Assembly: GCA_025354965.1 (NCBI GenBank)
Contig: JANXLW010000428.1
Coordinates: 1 to 35,995, forward strand
Origin: Betaproteobacteria bacterium
GTDB taxonomy: Bacteria; Pseudomonadota; Gammaproteobacteria; Burkholderiales; Burkholderiaceae_C
Direction: 5' to 3'
Length of the DNA: 35,995 nucleotides
A program made the translations under genes and the position numbers. The notes under the pieces were generated by a model that worked only from the letters and a program-made list of their open reading frames with translations, was not told the origin of the DNA and searched no databases. Below, piece by piece: positions 26,622 to 35,698 of the stretch. Position 1 is the stretch's first letter. The number at the start of each line of letters is the position of its first letter.

Positions 26622-26897
26622 ATGATGAACCACAATACGATCACGATTGCTGAAATCAAGCGCCGTGGCATGGCTGCAATCGACGATGGCTTGCGCCGCG
26701 GTCCGGTGCACATCATCAGGCGAAACAAGATGGCCGCTGTTGTCCTCGCAGAGGAGGAGTATCAGCGTCTCACCAACCAAAAATTGGTAAATTCGTCTGG
26801 CGTAACTGCCATGCAATGGCTGCTTTCACAGCCGACGATGGGCAAGCGCAGCAAAGAGCAGATCGACGCCGCTCTTAAAGTAGAGCGTGCCTGGTGA
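26622..26897 (+). CDS. Phd/YefM-family type II antitoxin
   Basis: MMNHNTITIAEIKRRGMAAIDDGLRRGPVHIIRRNKMAAVVLAEEEYQRL, Phd/YefM fold pattern. Confidence 0.82.
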   Translation: MMNHNTITIAEIKRRGMAAIDDGLRRGPVHIIRRNKMAAVVLAEEEYQRLTNQKLVNSSGVTAMQWLLSQPTMGKRSKEQIDAALKVERAW

Positions 26898-27240
26898 TTG
26901 CCTTCTTCGACTCAAGTGCGCAGTAATTTAGCGGCCGCTGCCAAAAAACACCCGGATATGCTCGCTGCTGTGTCCCGCCTGGCGTGGCTGCAGTGCCATG
27001 TTGGCCCCATGAAATCGAATGACAATGCCACCTTGGCTGCGTTCGACAAATTCTTTGCTCGCACTGACCTGGTATGGGTGGAGCTGAGTAAGGAAGTGGT
27101 CGAACTTGCAGCAGCGATTCGAGTCAAGCATGGGCTGAAGACGCCCGATGCGCTGCAAGCTGCAAGCTGTTTGCAACTGGGTGCTGATCACTTGTTTTCT
27201 GTCGACGTGCCAGCTTGCTGGTCACGCGACTTGAGTTACT
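26894..27240 (+). pseudogene. Decayed VapC-type PIN-domain toxin
   Basis: GTG 26894 overlapping the antitoxin stop encodes (M)IAFFDSSAQ-stop; the rest of the PIN domain (HPDMLAAVSRLAWLQCHVGPM...KHGLKTPDALQAASCLQLGADHLF) lies in another frame and the C-terminus is off-frame. Confidence 0.75.
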
Positions 27241-27658
27241 TCTTGGTGTTGTACAGCGCCGCATTTTTCTTGGCGTCTTTATAGGTCTTGCCGGCCTCAA
27301 CCAGATCCTTGATCTGCATTGCCTGTTCGGTGCTTAGAACATTCTTGCTGACCAGCATACCTTTGCTGCCGTAGGGGCGGGCGGCAATGATCTTGTCGGC
27401 TTCAACGGCGCTGATGCCGGGCAATTTCATCAACTCTTCACGAGTGGCAGCGTTGAGGTTGACCAGCTTGATATTGGGGTCGGCCTTGTATTTGCTGGCG
27501 GATGCTTTGCCGACCGGCTTTGCGCTGGTTTTACTTGCCACCGCCTTGCTGGCGGCCGGCTGCGGCGCGTTGGCTTTGTTGTCTGCCGCAAGGCTTGAAT
27601 TGGCAGCGCTCAGCAAACCAGTGACAGACAAAGCAAGTGCAATAAATCGGGTCTTCAT
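27236..27658 (-). CDS. Exported helix-hairpin-helix (ComEA-like) protein
   Basis: Signal peptide from MKTRFIALALSVTGLLSAANSSLA; Ala/Lys linker; HhH region VNLNAATREELMKLPGISAVEADKIIAARP. Confidence 0.8.
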   Translation of the reverse strand: MKTRFIALALSVTGLLSAANSSLAADNKANAPQPAASKAVASKTSAKPVGKASASKYKADPNIKLVNLNAATREELMKLPGISAVEADKIIAARPYGSKGMLVSKNVLSTEQAMQIKDLVEAGKTYKDAKKNAALYNTKK

Positions 27659-27683
27659 AAATTCCTTCAACTTTAAAAATAAA

Positions 27684-27713
27684 TAACCCGGATATGTTGC
27701 CACATCCGGGTTA
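27684..27713 (-). terminator. Intrinsic terminator of the decaheme gene
   Basis: 10-bp perfect stem TAACCCGGAT/ATCCGGGTTA followed on the - strand by TTTATTTTTAAAG. Confidence 0.7.
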
Positions 27714-27729
27714 GCTGTTGTCTGAGACA

Positions 27730-27755
27730 ACCGGTTACGGCGTACCGCAACCGGT
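27730..27755. other. Second hairpin downstream of the decaheme gene
   Basis: ACCGGTT ... AACCGGT, 7-bp stem, 22 bp downstream of the decaheme stop. Confidence 0.4.
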
Positions 27756-27777
27756 CAATCTCTGTCCCGATTGCACC

Positions 27778-30700
27778 CTAGTTGGAGTGCACCAACTTGA
27801 TGTCGGCTACCTTACCGGTGGCATGGCACACCATGCACCCTTCGCCTTGGGCCAGGGCTGTGCTGCGTGGCGCGTAAATCGAACCGCCTTCACGCTTCAT
27901 GTGGTCTTGCGCCAATTTGCTGTCGTGGCACGAAACGCAAGCCGTGGTGATGGGTGAATTCACCAAGCTGTTGCCGTCCGCCTGGATAGTTGCCCCAGGT
28001 AAGAGCGAGTAGAACGTGCCATCCGGTTTGCAGCCGTAGGTCGTTGCACTGCTGAAGTTCGCTCCAAAGCCGATGCCATATGCCGTAACGGCACCCGCAG
28101 TGGACGGAGTGACGTAGGGTGACAGACTGAAAGCAGACAGTGCGTCACCCACGGACGGTGAGGTCGCAGCGATACAACCATTGTTCCCCGAATTCACCTT
28201 TGTGTTAAGGGTTATGCTTTCTCCGCTGGCAGGGAATATGCCAGTCGCCACGGTCCTGTAGGGCCTGTTGGGCACTGCAGCGGCGTTAGCCGATGCCGCA
28301 AAGTCGTAAGTGCCAGGCAAATGGCAGGCTTCGCACTTGTTCACCACACCCGGATAACCGATCGACCAGAACCCATCCAGTGCGGAGACCGCATGCCAAG
28401 TGAACTTGTCAGTACGAACAGACGCAGCATGGATACCATGGACGAAGCTGGCAGCGTCAGCACTCCAGCCGGAACTGGTCCGGTTCGGGTTGTGGCACCA
28501 CGAGCAGGTGGTTCCATCATTGCGTTGGCCGGCATGGAAGGCTTCTGCGGTGAAGACACCCAGTTCCTGGTGGCAATTGTTGCAACGTGCGTCTTCCACA
28601 ATCGCGCGGCGTCCGGTATATCCGGTGGCAACTTTCTGCACATCTGGCGCAATAACGATCAGGCCACCCGTCTTGTTCGGCATGCTGGCGGTCAGACCCG
28701 AAGTCGCCGTTGCTGCCACCACCGGATAGGAGATCAGATTGGTCTGCGTCAGCGGCAGACTGCTGGTGACGTTGTAGCTGTAGCCCAAACCACCGGTCAG
28801 CATCACGGCAGTGTCCGGAATGGTCACGCCGGTCAGGGTTGCGGTGTAGTAGCCACTGCTGTCAGGGCCAGTCAGTGTGCCTGCGCTGGTGCCTGAAGCA
28901 GAACCGTTCCACAAACTTCTGAGGTAGCTGGAAGCCGAGGCATTGAAGTCTGCCGGGGCTGTAATGCCGTCCTGCGGTACCGAGAACACAAAGTACACGC
29001 TGGGGGCACCCATGAAGTTGGTCCAGATTTCCTGTGCTGCCAATTCTGCATTGGTCGCAACCGCACCGGCCTTGACAAAGGTGTTGAAAGCCGTTGCAGT
29101 GCCGTTCTGCAGCATCTGGAAGACCATCACGGGTTGCTTGCTGGCATTCCTGGACACGCTCTTGATGTTGTAGGTCACCTTGATGGCACCAGCCGGCAGG
29201 TTGGCGCTGTTCGAGGCAATCGAAGCAGCATTGGTGTTGGCGTTGGTACCACCCAAAAGGAGGGAGTTGGCAGCGTTAGGCGGTGTCACCGGGGTGTGAA
29301 CAAAAGCGACGCCGGCAGGTGCATGGCAGGTACCGCACAAAGTTGGATCTGCCGAAGCGGGACCGGTCAGAGCCCAACCGCCGTGTCCAGTGGTTGCGCC
29401 AGCTACCGTCTTGCCGGTGCCATCAGAGTACTTGATGCCGTCATGGCAAGCGCCGCAAGCCAGAATGCTGGGGACGTTCAACCAGTTGTCGCCTTGGGCC
29501 GTGGGGTTCGGGCCGCTGGCACTGTGGCACTTGGTACAGTTGCGCTGATCCTGCGGGTATTTCACTTCATTGAACAGGCCTTCACCGGCAGCGTTGAAGA
29601 AATAACCTTGTTTGACCAGTTCCGCGCCCATGTGGATCTTGTGGATCATGTTGGGGAAGTTGCCCAGCGCTCTGCCGTCAACCACGGCTGTGGTCGGACG
29701 GGTCGTTCCAGTCAGGGTCAGGCCATTATTGGTACTGGTGGCTTCCTGGCTGAAGGTGTATCTGATCTGATCCGTGTGGCAGGTCACGCAGTAGTTGGGA
29801 TCCTTGCGGCTGCCGTGCGCCAGGACCTTGCCCTGGTGACAGGCGCTGCAAGAGTCCAGCACGACGACATTGCGTTTGTCGGTGAGCGATCCGCCGTCCG
29901 GCCGGAAGTCATACCAGGCATTGCCGGTGTTGACCATGCTGACCGAAACCGGGGCACCCGAGGCAACTGGCAGAAAGCCTGTTGCGCTGGTGGTGTCAAT
30001 CAGGTTGGAGCCGGTGCCGGGGGCGGCGCCGCCGAGCTGAATGCCAACCCGGTGCGTCAAGGTTGCGTCGTAGGTGAGGTCACCCAGATCGGCTTTCTTG
30101 GACAGACCATCAGTCGTGTCGGGCAAGCTGGCCACAGTGGCTTTGGCTTGGGTGACATCGCGCTTAAAGGTGTATTGGTAACTGCCATCACCATTGTCAA
30201 CCAGCGTACCCTGGGCGTCGGAGGTTGGGTAGGTACCGCACCAGGTGGCGTTTACCGCTGGCACTGCGGGTACTGCGGGTGTCGCACCACTGGCAGGAAC
30301 AGCTGGAACTGCGGCAACGTTGTTGCATGCGGCGGTAGCGGCAACGGTGCCACTTGCTTGTGTAACATTGGCCGGAGCGGTCACCAGATAGCTGACCCAC
30401 TTGCTGGGTTGGTTGTTGGTGCCGGGTACCAGCTTGGCCAGGGTGAAGGCCAAATTGGTGAGGGCCGGCATGGTAGCTGAAGAACTTTGGGAACGGTTAC
30501 CAAGGCCTACGATGGGATTGCCCAAGGAGTCTTTGACTGTGAATTTGATAACTGGCGTGGTGGCAATCGTTGCGCCTGTAATCGCGACGGTTGGCGCCAG
30601 TGCTTTCCAGTTTGCAGCAGCCACGTCGGTAGAGGCTACCGTGTTGCTGGCAATTCGCACCACAGGTATGGCATTGGTGCCATCCAGACCGTTGTTGCCA

Positions 30701-30867
30701 GGGGCACCAGGAGCGCCAGCAACGCCTGGAGGGCCTGCCGGGCCAGGGGAGCCGGTACTACCGCCTCCGCAACCCGCCAGGGCAGCGACTGCGAGCAAGC
30801 TTGCCGCAGCCAGCTTGGTCCAGTGGGGGGACGGTCGATTCTTACTTGACTGATCGAAATATTTCAC
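27778..30867 (-). CDS. OmcA/MtrC-family decaheme c-type cytochrome, outer-membrane lipoprotein
   Basis: GTG start with AAGGAG SD; lipobox LAGC; ten CXXCH (CSACH CVTCH CTKCH CGACH CGTCH CNNCH CSWCH CEACH CVSCH CMVCH); collagen-like GXY tract after the lipobox. Confidence 0.92.
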   Translation of the reverse strand: MKYFDQSSKNRPSPHWTKLAAASLLAVAALAGCGGGSTGSPGPAGPPGVAGAPGAPGNNGLDGTNAIPVVRIASNTVASTDVAAANWKALAPTVAITGATIATTPVIKFTVKDSLGNPIVGLGNRSQSSSATMPALTNLAFTLAKLVPGTNNQPSKWVSYLVTAPANVTQASGTVAATAACNNVAAVPAVPASGATPAVPAVPAVNATWCGTYPTSDAQGTLVDNGDGSYQYTFKRDVTQAKATVASLPDTTDGLSKKADLGDLTYDATLTHRVGIQLGGAAPGTGSNLIDTTSATGFLPVASGAPVSVSMVNTGNAWYDFRPDGGSLTDKRNVVVLDSCSACHQGKVLAHGSRKDPNYCVTCHTDQIRYTFSQEATSTNNGLTLTGTTRPTTAVVDGRALGNFPNMIHKIHMGAELVKQGYFFNAAGEGLFNEVKYPQDQRNCTKCHSASGPNPTAQGDNWLNVPSILACGACHDGIKYSDGTGKTVAGATTGHGGWALTGPASADPTLCGTCHAPAGVAFVHTPVTPPNAANSLLLGGTNANTNAASIASNSANLPAGAIKVTYNIKSVSRNASKQPVMVFQMLQNGTATAFNTFVKAGAVATNAELAAQEIWTNFMGAPSVYFVFSVPQDGITAPADFNASASSYLRSLWNGSASGTSAGTLTGPDSSGYYTATLTGVTIPDTAVMLTGGLGYSYNVTSSLPLTQTNLISYPVVAATATSGLTASMPNKTGGLIVIAPDVQKVATGYTGRRAIVEDARCNNCHQELGVFTAEAFHAGQRNDGTTCSWCHNPNRTSSGWSADAASFVHGIHAASVRTDKFTWHAVSALDGFWSIGYPGVVNKCEACHLPGTYDFAASANAAAVPNRPYRTVATGIFPASGESITLNTKVNSGNNGCIAATSPSVGDALSAFSLSPYVTPSTAGAVTAYGIGFGANFSSATTYGCKPDGTFYSLLPGATIQADGNSLVNSPITTACVSCHDSKLAQDHMKREGGSIYAPRSTALAQGEGCMVCHATGKVADIKLVHSN

Positions 30868-30950
30868 AGCAGACTCCTTAAGTCTTAATTTACATCACTT
30901 TACACACACTTTACAGCGACCGATTCTCTATGGCGGTGTCGGTATCTGGT

Positions 30951-30964
30951 TTGTCCTAGATCAA
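30951..30964. promoter_or_regulatory. FNR/ANR-like site upstream of the decaheme gene
   Basis: TTGTC-CTAG-ATCAA; perfect ATCAA half-site. Confidence 0.4.
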
Positions 30965-31136
30965 ACTTGGAGCACGTGGGGAAAGGTATTTTCTGGTCCG
31001 CGAGTCCGGGAGCTGGCGAATTAAATTCTAAGCAGAACGCTTCAAACTGCGATCCATGTGCGCCAGGCCAGGAGGCGCTATGTTTGATATCAAATAGTGA
31101 TTGCAAATTCATCGTGTCCTTGCTACCATTGAACTC

Positions 31137-31391
31137 ATGAACAGCAAACATCGCAAGACATTGGCAGCGGTTTTTGCAAAGCCCACAGCGGTCTCGCTGG
31201 AATGGGCCCGAATTGAATCACTGTTGGTGGGTGTTGGATGCGCTGTGATTGAAGGCAACGGTTCGCGCGTGCGCTTTGTTCACGGCACATCAGTTGCCAG
31301 TTTCCACCGCCCGCACCCGACCAAGGAAGCCAAGGCGTACCAAGTAGAAGAAGCGCAAGCATTTTTAACATTGATAGGGGTAACACCATGA
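31137..31391 (+). CDS. hicA: HicA-family toxin
   Basis: MNSKHRKTLAAVFAKPTAVSLEWARIESLLVGVGCAVIEGNGSRVRF...ASFHRPHPTKEAKAYQVEEAQAFL; overlaps HicB-like gene. Confidence 0.85.
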   Translation: MNSKHRKTLAAVFAKPTAVSLEWARIESLLVGVGCAVIEGNGSRVRFVHGTSVASFHRPHPTKEAKAYQVEEAQAFLTLIGVTP

Positions 31392-31720
31392 ATACCATGA
31401 CCTACAAGGGCTACATCTCAAGAGTTGAGTTTGATGAGCGTGACAACATTCTTGTTGGCAAGTTGCTGGGCATCCGCGACAGTGTGAGTTTTCATGCCGA
31501 CAACGTGGCGGAGTTGCGTAGCGCCTTTGAACAAGCGGTTGATGACTACCTGGAAACATGTGCCAAGCTGTGCAAACCCGCTGAAAAGCCGGCATCAGGC
31601 AAAGTGATGTTGCGCGTGGCTCCCGAGATTCACAGGGCTGCCCTGATAGCAGCCCAGGCCAGCGGATTGAGTCTGAACAAATGGGCTGCCGACGCTCTGG
31701 CGCGGGCTGCCCACACATAG
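31388..31720 (+). CDS. hicB: HicB-family antitoxin
   Basis: YKGYISRVEFDERDNILVGKLLGIRDSVSFHADNVAELRSAFEQAVDDYLETC; C-terminal RHH-like region. Confidence 0.88.
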   Translation: MNTMTYKGYISRVEFDERDNILVGKLLGIRDSVSFHADNVAELRSAFEQAVDDYLETCAKLCKPAEKPASGKVMLRVAPEIHRAALIAAQASGLSLNKWAADALARAAHT

Positions 31721-31743
31721 GGTTTCGCCCAACAGGCATTTAC

Positions 31744-31760
31744 CTGCCGGGGTCCGGCAG
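31744..31760. other. GC hairpin next to the left 41-bp repeat
   Basis: CTGCCGG-GGT-CCGGCAG, perfect 7-bp stem. Confidence 0.4.
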
Positions 31761-31761
31761 A

Positions 31762-31802
31762 ACTACGGCAACTGGTAGCTGTAGGTCACCGCGATAACAC
31801 CG
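31762..31802. repeat. 41-bp direct repeat, left copy (3' end of hepT)
   Basis: actacggcaactggtagctgtaggtcaccgcgataacaccg, identical to 32592-32632. Confidence 0.95.
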
Positions 31803-32167
31803 TCGTTTTCTGTAGCCTTGATGCTGTCCAGAATTCGCTCCAAGTCTGGAAGATCGGTTCGTACAGTATCAAAAACGATGTTTGGGTTGGTCCTATGGTA
31901 TGTGTGCGTCAAACGAATCCGCATCGCATAGACGTCATCGAGGTGATGCCACGCATCGGGGTTGACGTGCTTCAACCCAGGTGCCGGTTTCATGATGTTG
32001 TTGGCAGCCTCGCCTATATCTATAAGACCTTTGATTACGGCGCGCTGTGACTTTCCATCATCGAGGAACTCGGGCTTCGTCAAGGTGCCAATGTCGGCGC
32101 GAATGTTCTTTATCGTTTCCCGGATGTCATTGAGCCAGTCCGGGATACGTCTTGCTTTACCGTTCAT
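31763..32167 (-). CDS. hepT: HepT-family toxin (HEPN) with C-terminus matching the MtrB-like protein
   Basis: MNGKARRIPDWLNDIRETIKNI...GLIDIGEAANNI...RIRLTHTYHRTNPNIVF; RX4-6H motif RIRLTHTY; ends GVIAVTYSYQLP. Confidence 0.87.
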   Translation of the reverse strand: MNGKARRIPDWLNDIRETIKNIRADIGTLTKPEFLDDGKSQRAVIKGLIDIGEAANNIMKPAPGLKHVNPDAWHHLDDVYAMRIRLTHTYHRTNPNIVFDTVRTDLPDLERILDSIKATENDGVIAVTYSYQLP

Positions 32168-32457
32168 ACCGACTGAGCCTCCATCACAACTTGGGCACGG
32201 AAGCGTTCATGCAAATCAAGAGGAGTCAAGACGTCAGTCTTGGTGCCAGTCAATGCCTGTATGGCAAGCTGGATTCTGGCGAGGCTGAGCAGTGTTGTCT
32301 TGCCGTCGATGGCATCTACAAGAAGGTCCAAGTCGCTGTCGTCTGTATCCTCGCCATGGACAATCGATCCAAACACACGAGGGTTGGCTGCATTATTTTT
32401 TTCAACAATGCGACGAATATCTTCACGATGTAGCTGGAGCGCTTCAGAGGGTTTCAT
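32164..32457 (-). CDS. mntA: MntA-family nucleotidyltransferase antitoxin
   Basis: RVFGSIVHGEDTDDSDLDLLVD nucleotidyltransferase GSX10DXD motif; overlaps hepT. Confidence 0.87.
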   Translation of the reverse strand: MKPSEALQLHREDIRRIVEKNNAANPRVFGSIVHGEDTDDSDLDLLVDAIDGKTTLLSLARIQLAIQALTGTKTDVLTPLDLHERFRAQVVMEAQSV

Positions 32458-32591
32458 AAATAGTGCCTGCTCCAGACAGTATCACCTTTCGTCAACAGTC
32501 AACCCAATATATCTGCAAAAGGCCATCTGTTGGCTTGATCATTTGCCTGAAAATTAGCTCAAGAAGTGGTAAACCGCGCGTGCCAGCACCG

Positions 32592-32632
32592 ACTACGGCA
32601 ACTGGTAGCTGTAGGTCACCGCGATAACACCG
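32592..32632. repeat. 41-bp direct repeat, right copy (3' end of mtrB-like gene)
   Basis: Identical to 31762-31802. Confidence 0.95.
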
Positions 32633-34761
32633 ACGCTCTGGGTTGGCTTTTGCGTCACCGTGGTGCCATCCGAATAACTGAAGCCGGTCCAGGCCCAGTC
32701 GTTCACGCTGTAGCGCTGGTGCACAAGGTCAACCCGCACGGTGGACGATTTATCGAGCGTATATTTGCCGAACAGTTTCAAGCCAGTCTGGCGGTACACC
32801 ACATCTGGCAAGCCGCCGCTGGTGGCCAGCAGATTGACGCTATAGGCATCGGCGGTGGCGTCCAGCGTCTGGGCGTAGACGCTCTTGTCGCCAACATAGG
32901 TCAGATTGCCACCGACTTGCAGGGCGCTGCTGGCCTTGCCGGTGAAGCCGATGCTGGCACCGAGGTTGGTGTTGTCAAACGCCATCACGTAGCCCGCCGG
33001 ACGGGCCTGGTTAAAGGTCTGCACACCGCGTGACGCATAGCCGTTCAAGGCCCAGTTGTCGGACAGGGTGTAACCCCAATCGATGCTGAGCTGGTTCATG
33101 CCGGTGTCGCGCAGTCCGTAGACGCTGGGCGTGTTGAACTTGTCGGACCCTTTTTCGGCGCTCAACTGCAGTGTCAGGCTTTCGCTGGGCTGCCAGTCAG
33201 CAAACAGCTTGACCTTGTTGCGCTGGCGATCAGCCAGTGTGGGCATGAAGATCGCCGTCGGCAAAAAGCCGGTGACCGGGTCGGCCGGGTTGGTGACTTC
33301 AGTAAGGCCTAAACCACTGTTGTCCTTCAACCAGTTGGAGCCGTCGCGTCGGTTGCTGGAAACACCCACCGTAGCGCTGAAGTTCTCTGCCATGCGGCCG
33401 CGCAGCTCGGCGCGCAAGCCAGTCTCTTTGGTCTTTTGCCGCAGCGCGTTGATGCCGGACACGGCGCTGGTTGCGGTGTAGAGACCACGATCAATGGCTT
33501 CATAGTCGGCACCCAGCGTGCCACGGTAGTCGCTGTTGAACTGCCAGTTGGCTTGCAGCTTGCCGTTGCTCTTTTTACTGGAAAGATCGCGGTTGGTGTA
33601 AGTGAAGGGGACGGCGGGTAAAGGCGGTACTGCGCCTTCGAGGTTGTAGCTGGCAATTGGTGTCTGGTCGTTCTTGTCCTCGTAGCGCACATCGGCCAGC
33701 AAAGACAGCTTGGCTATGGGGCGCGACGTCAGGCCAATCTTGGCCAACCTGGTGTTGACCAAACCGCCCAGATTGCCGACACCGGCCGGAGCGCCGCTCA
33801 GGCCAGCACTGGCAAAGTCAGCATTCTGCGTGGCGGTGGCGTAGCCCAGCTTGAAAGTGCCGCGGGTGGTTAGCGTGAAATCGTAGCTGCCGCTCAAATC
33901 AAACTGGTGTGCCTGGTTGTCGGGGGCCAGTGCCACCGGATTGTTCAGGATGCCGATCAACGCCGCGTTGCTGTTCAAGCTGCCAGGTACATTGGGGTTC
34001 AACGTGTCGTTGGCATTGCGATAAATCGAGCCGTAGTAGCCCAGGTTGAAGCGCAACTTTTCCAGGGCGTAACTGAGCCGGGCGTCGATTTGCGTGTGTC
34101 GGGCATTGATCGGTTCGGGCAACATCAGAAGCGCCCAGCCGGTGTTGGCGCCACAGGTCGGTGCGATCACCGAGGGACAGTTCATGCCGATACCGGACAA
34201 CCGTGCGCCTTCCTTCTTTTCGCTTTTCAGATCAAGCTCGAATTGCAGGGCCGGGGTGATAAATTTTGCCAGACCGATACCGAGCCCGGTCCGTTTGGTT
34301 TTCAAATCGTAATCCGTGCCGGTCCCGGCCAGCAGGGGTACCACTTGCGGCGTCGTTGACCCTGCACCCAGCAGGCCGGTGTTAACGGTGTACGGGTTGT
34401 AGCGTGTCAGCTCGCCATAATCGGCGCTGAGTTTCCAGCTACCGGGGTTCTTCCAGACCAGGTGCAGTTCACGCGAGTCACCCAGCAGGTTGCCACCCTC
34501 AAACTGAACCCAGGTCGGAGCGTCTACCTTGCGCAGGCTGTAGTCGATGTCGGCGACACCAATCACGTTGCGATCAGTGTGCAAACCGTTGTATTGGCCG
34601 AACTGCGCACGGTCGGCACTGGAGCCGGTGACGGCGCCAAGGCCAATGCTCACGGTGGTCTGGGCACCCTCGGTCTGGGCTTGCGCGGCAAAGCAGACGG
34701 CGCTGACCGCAATTGCGATCACGGTTTTGTGCATGTCAAATGAAAAAACGGAAGTGGTCAT
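32593..34761 (-). CDS. MtrB/PioB-family outer-membrane beta-barrel
   Basis: Start MTTSVFSFDMHKTVIAIAVSAVCFAAQA with GGAG SD; alternating beta-strand pattern over 700 aa; directly downstream of an MtrA/DmsE-type decaheme gene. Confidence 0.88.
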   Translation of the reverse strand: MTTSVFSFDMHKTVIAIAVSAVCFAAQAQTEGAQTTVSIGLGAVTGSSADRAQFGQYNGLHTDRNVIGVADIDYSLRKVDAPTWVQFEGGNLLGDSRELHLVWKNPGSWKLSADYGELTRYNPYTVNTGLLGAGSTTPQVVPLLAGTGTDYDLKTKRTGLGIGLAKFITPALQFELDLKSEKKEGARLSGIGMNCPSVIAPTCGANTGWALLMLPEPINARHTQIDARLSYALEKLRFNLGYYGSIYRNANDTLNPNVPGSLNSNAALIGILNNPVALAPDNQAHQFDLSGSYDFTLTTRGTFKLGYATATQNADFASAGLSGAPAGVGNLGGLVNTRLAKIGLTSRPIAKLSLLADVRYEDKNDQTPIASYNLEGAVPPLPAVPFTYTNRDLSSKKSNGKLQANWQFNSDYRGTLGADYEAIDRGLYTATSAVSGINALRQKTKETGLRAELRGRMAENFSATVGVSSNRRDGSNWLKDNSGLGLTEVTNPADPVTGFLPTAIFMPTLADRQRNKVKLFADWQPSESLTLQLSAEKGSDKFNTPSVYGLRDTGMNQLSIDWGYTLSDNWALNGYASRGVQTFNQARPAGYVMAFDNTNLGASIGFTGKASSALQVGGNLTYVGDKSVYAQTLDATADAYSVNLLATSGGLPDVVYRQTGLKLFGKYTLDKSSTVRVDLVHQRYSVNDWAWTGFSYSDGTTVTQKPTQSVGVIAVTYSYQLP

Positions 34762-34777
34762 GGTGGTTCTCCGTACT

Positions 34778-35698
34778 TCAGCGCAACATGAGCTGTGGCG
34801 TCGGATTGGTGGTCGACGGATTATTGGAGCCATGAACCTGTGTATGACAGTTCAGGCAGCTGCGACCCTGCCACAGGTTGGCGACGTTCTTGCCACTGCT
34901 GCCGGGGTTAGGTACACCGACGGCGCCGATACCACCTGCCGCATGCGGCGTATGGCATTGCTGGCACAGCATGGGGGCACGCGCCTTGAGCATGCCCTCG
35001 ACGCTGCTGCCGTGCACGTTGTGGCAGTTGGTGCAGTCTTCGGCGACCGGTTCATGCTGATGCACAAAGGGGCCGCGTTTTTCGGCGTGGCAGGTGTAGC
35101 AGGTGGCGTTGATGCTGTCGCGTTTTGCCAGCTTGGGCCCGGCCGAGCCATGCACGTTGTGGCAATCAGAGCAGTTCATCTTGCCCTCGGGAACCGGATG
35201 GTGCGATGGCCGGTTCATCTGGGCGCGCTGCTGCTTATGGCAGGTGTAGCAAACCTCGGTCTGGGTTGCCTTGTTCAAAATCTTGTCGCGGTTGGCATGT
35301 ATCTTGTGGCAGGAATTGCAGGCAAGGTCAGCGCTGTCATGCTGGCTACCAGCCCACAATGCGCGCTTGGGGTCCTTGGCGTGGCAGGTCAGGCAGACCG
35401 CACTGCGCTCGTTGGCAGGTAGCGCAAATTGCCGGATGAACATGCGGTCAGGGTGTGGCCGTTCCTTGACATCGGCGGGCTTCTTGGCATGCGTGGGGCT
35501 GGGGCCGTGGCAGGTGATGCAGTCCGGCACTCGCTTGTCGACGGCAAAGCCGTGCGCCGAGCGGCTCATGTCCGGCAGGTCTTCTTCGTCGTGGCAGGTA
35601 ACGCACAGCGCCGCGCCGGTTTCCCCGGCGCTCCAGGCTGGCCCGAGCAGCCCAAACAGGCAAAGCCCGAAGATGGCGGTTAAACGCTTGATACGCAT
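34778..35698 (-). CDS. MtrA/DmsE/PioA-family periplasmic decaheme cytochrome c
   Basis: Signal peptide MRIKRLTAIFGLCLFGLLGPAWSA; ten CXXCH (CVTCH CITCH CLTCH CNSCH CYTCH CSDCH CYTCH CTNCH CQQCH CLNCH). Confidence 0.92.
   Translation of the reverse strand: MRIKRLTAIFGLCLFGLLGPAWSAGETGAALCVTCHDEEDLPDMSRSAHGFAVDKRVPDCITCHGPSPTHAKKPADVKERPHPDRMFIRQFALPANERSAVCLTCHAKDPKRALWAGSQHDSADLACNSCHKIHANRDKILNKATQTEVCYTCHKQQRAQMNRPSHHPVPEGKMNCSDCHNVHGSAGPKLAKRDSINATCYTCHAEKRGPFVHQHEPVAEDCTNCHNVHGSSVEGMLKARAPMLCQQCHTPHAAGGIGAVGVPNPGSSGKNVANLWQGRSCLNCHTQVHGSNNPSTTNPTPQLMLR

Follow-up and report, generated by a model that had tools for sequence, protein, structure and literature searches.

An mntA-hepT toxin-antitoxin module bracketed by copies of the 3' end of an mtrB-type porin gene, and related footprints at other host genes

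How chromosomal toxin-antitoxin modules spread without a nearby plasmid, phage or transposon is a long-standing question, and it is raised by a locus at which an mntA-hepT module lies between two copies of the end of a porin gene. The window analyzed here (35,995 nucleotides) is the whole of contig C330 in a 490-contig, 3.68-Mb assembly, and the whole locus gave a single match in a search of that assembly. The host gene (32593..34833, - strand) encodes an outer-membrane porin of the MtrB/PioB type (PF11854 MtrB_PioB, E 1e-141), with a C-terminus conserved across relatives. It is followed on the same strand by genes for the MntA antitoxin (32164..32457) and the HepT toxin (31763..32167) and, further on, by a gene for an MtrC-like multihaem cytochrome (27778..30867, - strand), which directly follows the porin gene in empty relatives (based on ORFs and the relatives' loci). 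The gap between the porin and mtrC-like genes is 1.7 kb in the window and is occupied by mntA-hepT and a second insert, a hicAB module (31101..31720, + strand; PF07927, PF05534) that lies outside the bracket. A candidate porin-end remnant beside this hicAB is merely a 12-bp match inside hicB and was treated as chance.

The first-pass annotation had reported a perfect 41-bp repeat around mntA-hepT and a C-terminus shared in frame by HepT and the porin. Both hold on direct comparison: positions 31762-31802 are identical to 32592-32632, and GVIAVTYSYQLP followed by a stop ends both HepT (31763-32167) and the porin (32593-34833). The - strand sequence of the repeat is C-GGT GTT ATC GCG GTG ACC TAC AGC TAC CAG TTG CCG TAG-T. 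The left copy (32592..32632, - strand) is the original and forms the porin's final 12 codons and stop; the right, duplicated copy (31762..31802, - strand) is the present hepT 3' end. Identity extends to 43/44 if one mismatch is permitted and is 88% across 58 bp. A 27-bp core of the repeat, allowing ≤3 mismatches, is found in the window only at these two sites, and shuffled sequences give 0. The region upstream of mntA (32458..32591, - strand), which arrived with the module, starts with CGGTGCTGG right after the left copy (sequence and junction table). Just past the right copy is an inverted repeat, CTGCCGGGGTCCGGCAG (31744..31760, no strand assigned), which is probably the former porin terminator, a role inferred from its sequence. 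Another inverted repeat, I2, lies at the left junction; with four pairs of this kind within 3.5 kb, it was treated as chance. The five bases right after the left copy (CGGTG, - strand, 32587-32591) are the same as the repeat's own first five bases (31798-31802), as though the event had involved a circle or else a further crossover at CGGTG; this may be chance (about 1 in 1000).

No integrase, recombinase or transposase was found among the ORFs and Pfam matches of the insert (31803-32591), which encodes only mntA and hepT. Unlike a transposon, the module has no inverted repeats at its termini and no transposase ORF. The integron attC ends GTTRRRY and RYYYAAC are absent from the repeat as read, and the repeat does not resemble the 28-bp dif-like site of XerC/XerD (judged by eye, without a site model). 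An origin of mntA-hepT from a phage or plasmid was considered and rejected; a scan of viral contigs yielded no confirmed relative, and the HepTs on plasmids are all <60% identical.

The porin is encoded in 47 of 150 relatives, and those read end in variants of GVTYxYQLP-stop, the C-terminus VIGVTYxYQLP being a family feature. Since the porins of relatives share that C-terminus, the copy in the porin gene is native. The tails of HepT relatives are unrelated to the porin motif, and none of these proteins naturally ends in VIAVTYSYQLP. L033 encodes the nearest relative of this HepT (83% identity across the part compared), which matches the window HepT through ‘GV’ and then ends with APKSS-stop; divergence right after ‘GV’ indicates that the hepT tail was replaced. 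At the join the DNA reads AACGCCGGTGTAGCGCCC in L033, AACGACGGTGTTATCGCG in the window and AGCGTCGGTGTTATCGCG in the porin gene, which would place the join in or adjacent to a shared CGGTGT microhomology, where the repeat begins, as judged against this single reference relative. The ancestral hepT end is inferred from L033 alone. If L033 shows that end, the porin-derived part may be ~35 bp and not 41, because the first ~6 bp (CGGTGT) would already have been in hepT. The hepT of L033 has itself lost ~35 N-terminal codons in frame, with the catalytic motif kept.

A native porin end and a foreign hepT tail indicate that mntA-hepT entered at the 3' end of the porin gene and that this end was duplicated in the process. 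The first-pass annotation had described the shared sequence as a terminal porin strand and not a HepT tail, and had proposed that the module was inserted at the porin 3' end, duplicating it, with hepT taking over the last 12 codons and stop; sequence comparison supports both statements, in that porin relatives share the C-terminus and HepTs differ. The toxin thus gained a new C-terminus from the gene where the module landed. No allele carrying the module with a single repeat copy was present among the relatives' loci examined. The exact empty allele, ...CAGTTGCCGTAGTTCTGCCGGACCCCGGCAG, could also not be observed, the nearest porin among relatives being just 72% identical.

The captured tail is attached to a toxin that otherwise looks complete. 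HepT contains the catalytic motif R83-X4-H88-X-Y90 intact, and the GSX10DXD motif of MntA is present and reads GSIVHGEDTDDSDLD; RX4HXY in HepT and GSX10DXD in MntA are the motifs defined for type VII toxin-antitoxin systems (PMC7641770). Both proteins score above the cut-offs of their Pfam families (PF01934 HepT-like and PF01909 NTP_transf_2) and below those of the NCBIfam equivalogs, including that for MntA. The module resembles the type VII pair described in that paper in carrying both signature motifs, and neutralization of HepT through adenylylation by MntA is inferred here from this likeness. It differs in that the genes overlap in the order mntA-hepT and HepT has a 12-residue porin tail outside the fold. 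In an AlphaFold model of HepT (mean pLDDT 84.5) the confident part ends near residue 121, and residues 122-134 are of low confidence. As the tail lies outside the confidently modelled fold, it is predicted to be probably harmless to the fold of the toxin. No solved structure matching HepT by sequence was found.

The porin loci of relatives were scanned for additional copies of the porin end. At least eight relatives have empty sites, with no more than ~300 bp between the porin stop and the start of an mtrC-like multihaem gene. Other relatives have inserts. In G049 the porin gene is followed by brnTA (PF14384 and PF04365), a 40-bp porin end at 95% identity, terminator-like sequence that resembles the porin terminators of G027 and G034, an NTP_transf_8 gene, a 14-17 bp porin-end remnant and then the mtrC upstream region; the brnA stop lies inside the porin stop on the opposite strand. 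G085 has brnA with brnT mostly deleted, then a porin end (92% over 37 bp) and the mtrC upstream region. The order in G027 is porin, NTP_transf_8 gene, porin-end remnant (~17/21) and brnA remnant, so the NTP_transf_8 and brnA cassettes occur in opposite orders in G027 and G049. A full-length hipA/yjjJ-type toxin gene (NCBIfam YjjJ above cut-off) is followed by a 50-bp porin remnant in G007, and a truncated gene of this type (judged by reading) by a 136-bp porin remnant at 84.6% identity and the mtrC upstream region in G028. These loci show that several different toxin or toxin-linked genes landed at one porin end, and in each case a copy of that end closes the insert. The loci in G049, G085 and G027 (L388, L389 and L074) are array-like, with brnTA and NTP_transf_8 cassettes separated by porin-end remnants.

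A search for other mntA-hepT modules flanked by duplicated host gene ends, as proposed in the first-pass annotation, recovered them at several host genes in relatives. The bracketing repeats derive from an MmeI-type restriction-methylase gene end (L178, 61 bp), a gene in G034 with an end similar to that of this MmeI-type gene (L107, 32 bp), a MacB permease gene (L171, 294 bp), a DAHP synthase gene (L163, 366 bp with an internal deletion), the 5' end of a DNA methylase gene (L128, 130 bp), an uncharacterized gene (L058, 182 bp) and a terminator (L050, 48 bp). Modules of hicAB are bracketed by lipoamide dehydrogenase 3' ends of 51 to 553 bp in three genomes (L233, L238 and L239), which is apparently a second hotspot, and elsewhere by the 3' end of a release-factor-3 gene, the 5' end of a shikimate kinase gene, an epimerase gene, and a tRNA end with a terminator. 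The two DAHP synthase copies (L163, 1188-1553 and 2303-2604) are 100% identical over the last 111 bp, and both are 91% identical to the sister genome G017, so this last stretch of the copy arose in situ. Identity between the copies is 97% and 100% at the two ends and 83.5% in a middle block, with a ~64-bp gap in the remnant. The divergent block marks the right copy as mosaic, which is what homologous recombination with other lineages would be expected to leave.

The frequency of brackets was compared with that around other positions and genes, a bracket being defined as a direct repeat of ≥38 bits around a gene with ≤1.3 kb enclosed, the same for all classes. Cross-locus pairs were dropped as the sole control, with random positions and non-toxin genes used instead. 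Among relatives, 12/64 HepT and 16/68 HicA genes are bracketed. The corresponding counts are 5/340 for random positions spaced by 1 kb in six genomes (all five in one genome), 3/208 for positions in porin neighbourhoods (including the toxin insertion in G028), and 0/30 each for glyoxalase and acetyltransferase genes. Only 1/30 PIN toxin genes is bracketed, and the pattern is thus not universal among toxin families. HepT and HicA together (28/132) differ from the pooled random positions, glyoxalase and acetyltransferase genes (5/400) with p = 8e-14; after dispersed repeats, attC sites, gene duplications and unclear cases were removed by hand, the comparison is 15/132 vs. 0/400 (p = 4e-10). These p-values overstate certainty, because the hand filter was unblinded, toxin-antitoxin loci are partly non-independent and the control genes are less mobile. 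Despite these caveats, the excess of bracketed HepT and HicA modules is large, and two module families (mntA-hepT and hicAB) have a strong excess of footprints over ordinary genes. Sequences that were read and set aside as not being gene-end duplications are intergenic repeats (L133, L145, L159), a repeat-rich gene (L179), lipoyl domains of adjacent genes (L124), a hicB duplication (L192), attC sites (L226, L191) and repeats with three copies each (L184, L234); L183, L207, L216 and L221 remained unclassified. In L226 and L191 (G112) hicAB is flanked by attC-like repeats, and these are probably cassettes of a chromosomal integron.

We consider the best account of the locus, with confidence somewhat above even, to be insertion of mntA-hepT at the porin 3' end by an event that duplicated the last ~35-41 bp, an ‘insertion with long target duplication’ in a fuller model that includes a recombination route. 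Foreign DNA carrying the module would most likely have joined the chromosome by recombination or template switching, which is inferred, a template-switch fusion not being directly observable. If one junction fell at the gene end and the second one further upstream, the end would, by inference, be copied twice. The left copy leaves the porin intact; the right copy would have joined hepT in frame at the CGGTGT microhomology and now supplies its last 12 codons, its stop and (inferred) the old porin terminator. Only events that spare the host gene would survive selection. RecA could delete the module precisely between the direct repeats, and we infer that bracketed modules persist because an addiction module penalizes its own loss. 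A bracketed cassette has homology to one host gene on each side, and we further infer that it could therefore pass to relatives by ordinary homologous recombination; such spread would account for finding the porin-end cassettes in more than one order.

The main rival is a trans-acting tyrosine or serine recombinase that uses the porin 3' end as attB and integrates recombinase-less cassettes, restoring the gene end as at tRNA genes. It has this standing because two different modules share a near-equal porin boundary (the copy starts near -37 for G049 and near -41 for the window) and because brnA and the NTP_transf_8 gene are found in both orders; it would also accommodate several different cassettes at one gene end and the one hicAB bracketed by a tRNA end. 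However, the repeats have no constant length (about 14, 40, 41 and 136 bp for copies of the porin end and 32-366 bp at other loci), the targets have no evident common sequence and include gene 5' ends, and the hepT end departs from its relative inside the repeat, at the microhomology. The module encodes no recombinase, although an enzyme acting in trans is not excluded. We regard this explanation as rather unlikely. The resemblance to attB-type restoration of a gene end that the first-pass annotation pointed out remains an analogy only and is not supported as a mechanism, with repeats of ~14 to 366 bp around a module without a recombinase.

In another order of events the module landed downstream of the porin first, by any route, and gene conversion or template switching later overwrote the hepT end with a copy of the porin's. 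The junction microhomology would fit this equally, but bracketing is also observed around modules that are not fused to the repeat (G049, G085, L163, L171, L178), which makes the duplicated flank a general feature and tail capture a by-product; we consider the overwriting improbable. An assembly artefact, in which a 41-bp shared word caused a false join, needs mention, since assemblers commonly use a k-mer of 41 and the window makes up a single complete contig out of the assembly's 490. Yet an assembler would need the hepT-to-repeat fusion in the reads, the same pattern is present in other genomes, some on long contigs (669 kb in G037, 99 kb in G049), and the imperfect repeats elsewhere cannot be k-mer joins; there is very little to recommend this reading. 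That the HepT motif arose by descent or convergence, its identity with the porin being coincidental, is already refuted by 41 identical bases that include silent positions, by the differing HepT tails of relatives and by shuffles without a match.

Insertion with long target duplication is known from restriction-modification genes in Helicobacter pylori (Nobusato et al. 2000 Gene 259:99, as cited in PMC1643837), and summaries of the process describe its duplications as long and variable, on a scale of around 100 bp (PMC3874152; PMC3031569). We found no report of it for toxin-antitoxin modules, only for restriction-modification, in the searchable literature, subscription literature being outside our reach. 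The likeness consists in an addictive module, a long and variable target duplication (41 bp here and 32-366 bp at other loci, far beyond what a transposon duplicates) and the lack of an own transposase or integrase. Here, in contrast, the cargo is a toxin-antitoxin module, a new class that is addictive like restriction-modification; the repeats are mostly host gene ends, the same end was struck repeatedly by different modules, and a repeat has joined a toxin gene. The dif modules (pdif) of Acinetobacter plasmids are also small recombinase-less cassettes, often toxin-antitoxin and shuffled in order, but are bounded by constant XerC/XerD sites, whereas the boundaries here are copies of local host genes. 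Integron gene cassettes likewise include toxin-antitoxin modules with repeats between them, but their attC belongs to the cassette and needs an integrase, whereas the repeat here is a host gene end. Integrative elements at gene or tRNA 3' ends share the restored gene end and the direct repeat on both sides; the present cases differ in having no integrase, tiny cargo and a repeat length that varies across cassettes at the same gene.

The recurrence at the same porin end with different toxin genes suggests how modules can move without a visible mobile element. Several toxin modules were taken up by one gene end in one genus and left readable footprints, which provides natural insertion junctions for analysis. 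A broader idea can be offered only tentatively, and we would not bet on it: toxin-antitoxin modules here may move as recombinase-less cassettes, with adjacent host gene ends as portable homology arms, and form arrays like those of integrons at hotspots, the mtrB porin end among them. If true, such portable-arm cassettes would be a general, unrecognized mobility route for chromosomal toxin-antitoxin modules, stabilized by their own addiction.

The stretch from 26622 to 32457 contains three distinct toxin-antitoxin modules (Phd-PIN, HicAB and MntA-HepT) among the genes of one extracellular-electron-transfer cluster. The PIN toxin ORF (26898-27284, + strand), which follows a Phd/YefM-type antitoxin gene (26622-26897), overlaps the 3' end of a ComEA-like gene (27236-27730, - strand). 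Its last 16 codons are antisense to the end of the ComEA-like gene, making this a second toxin tail drawn from a host gene end.
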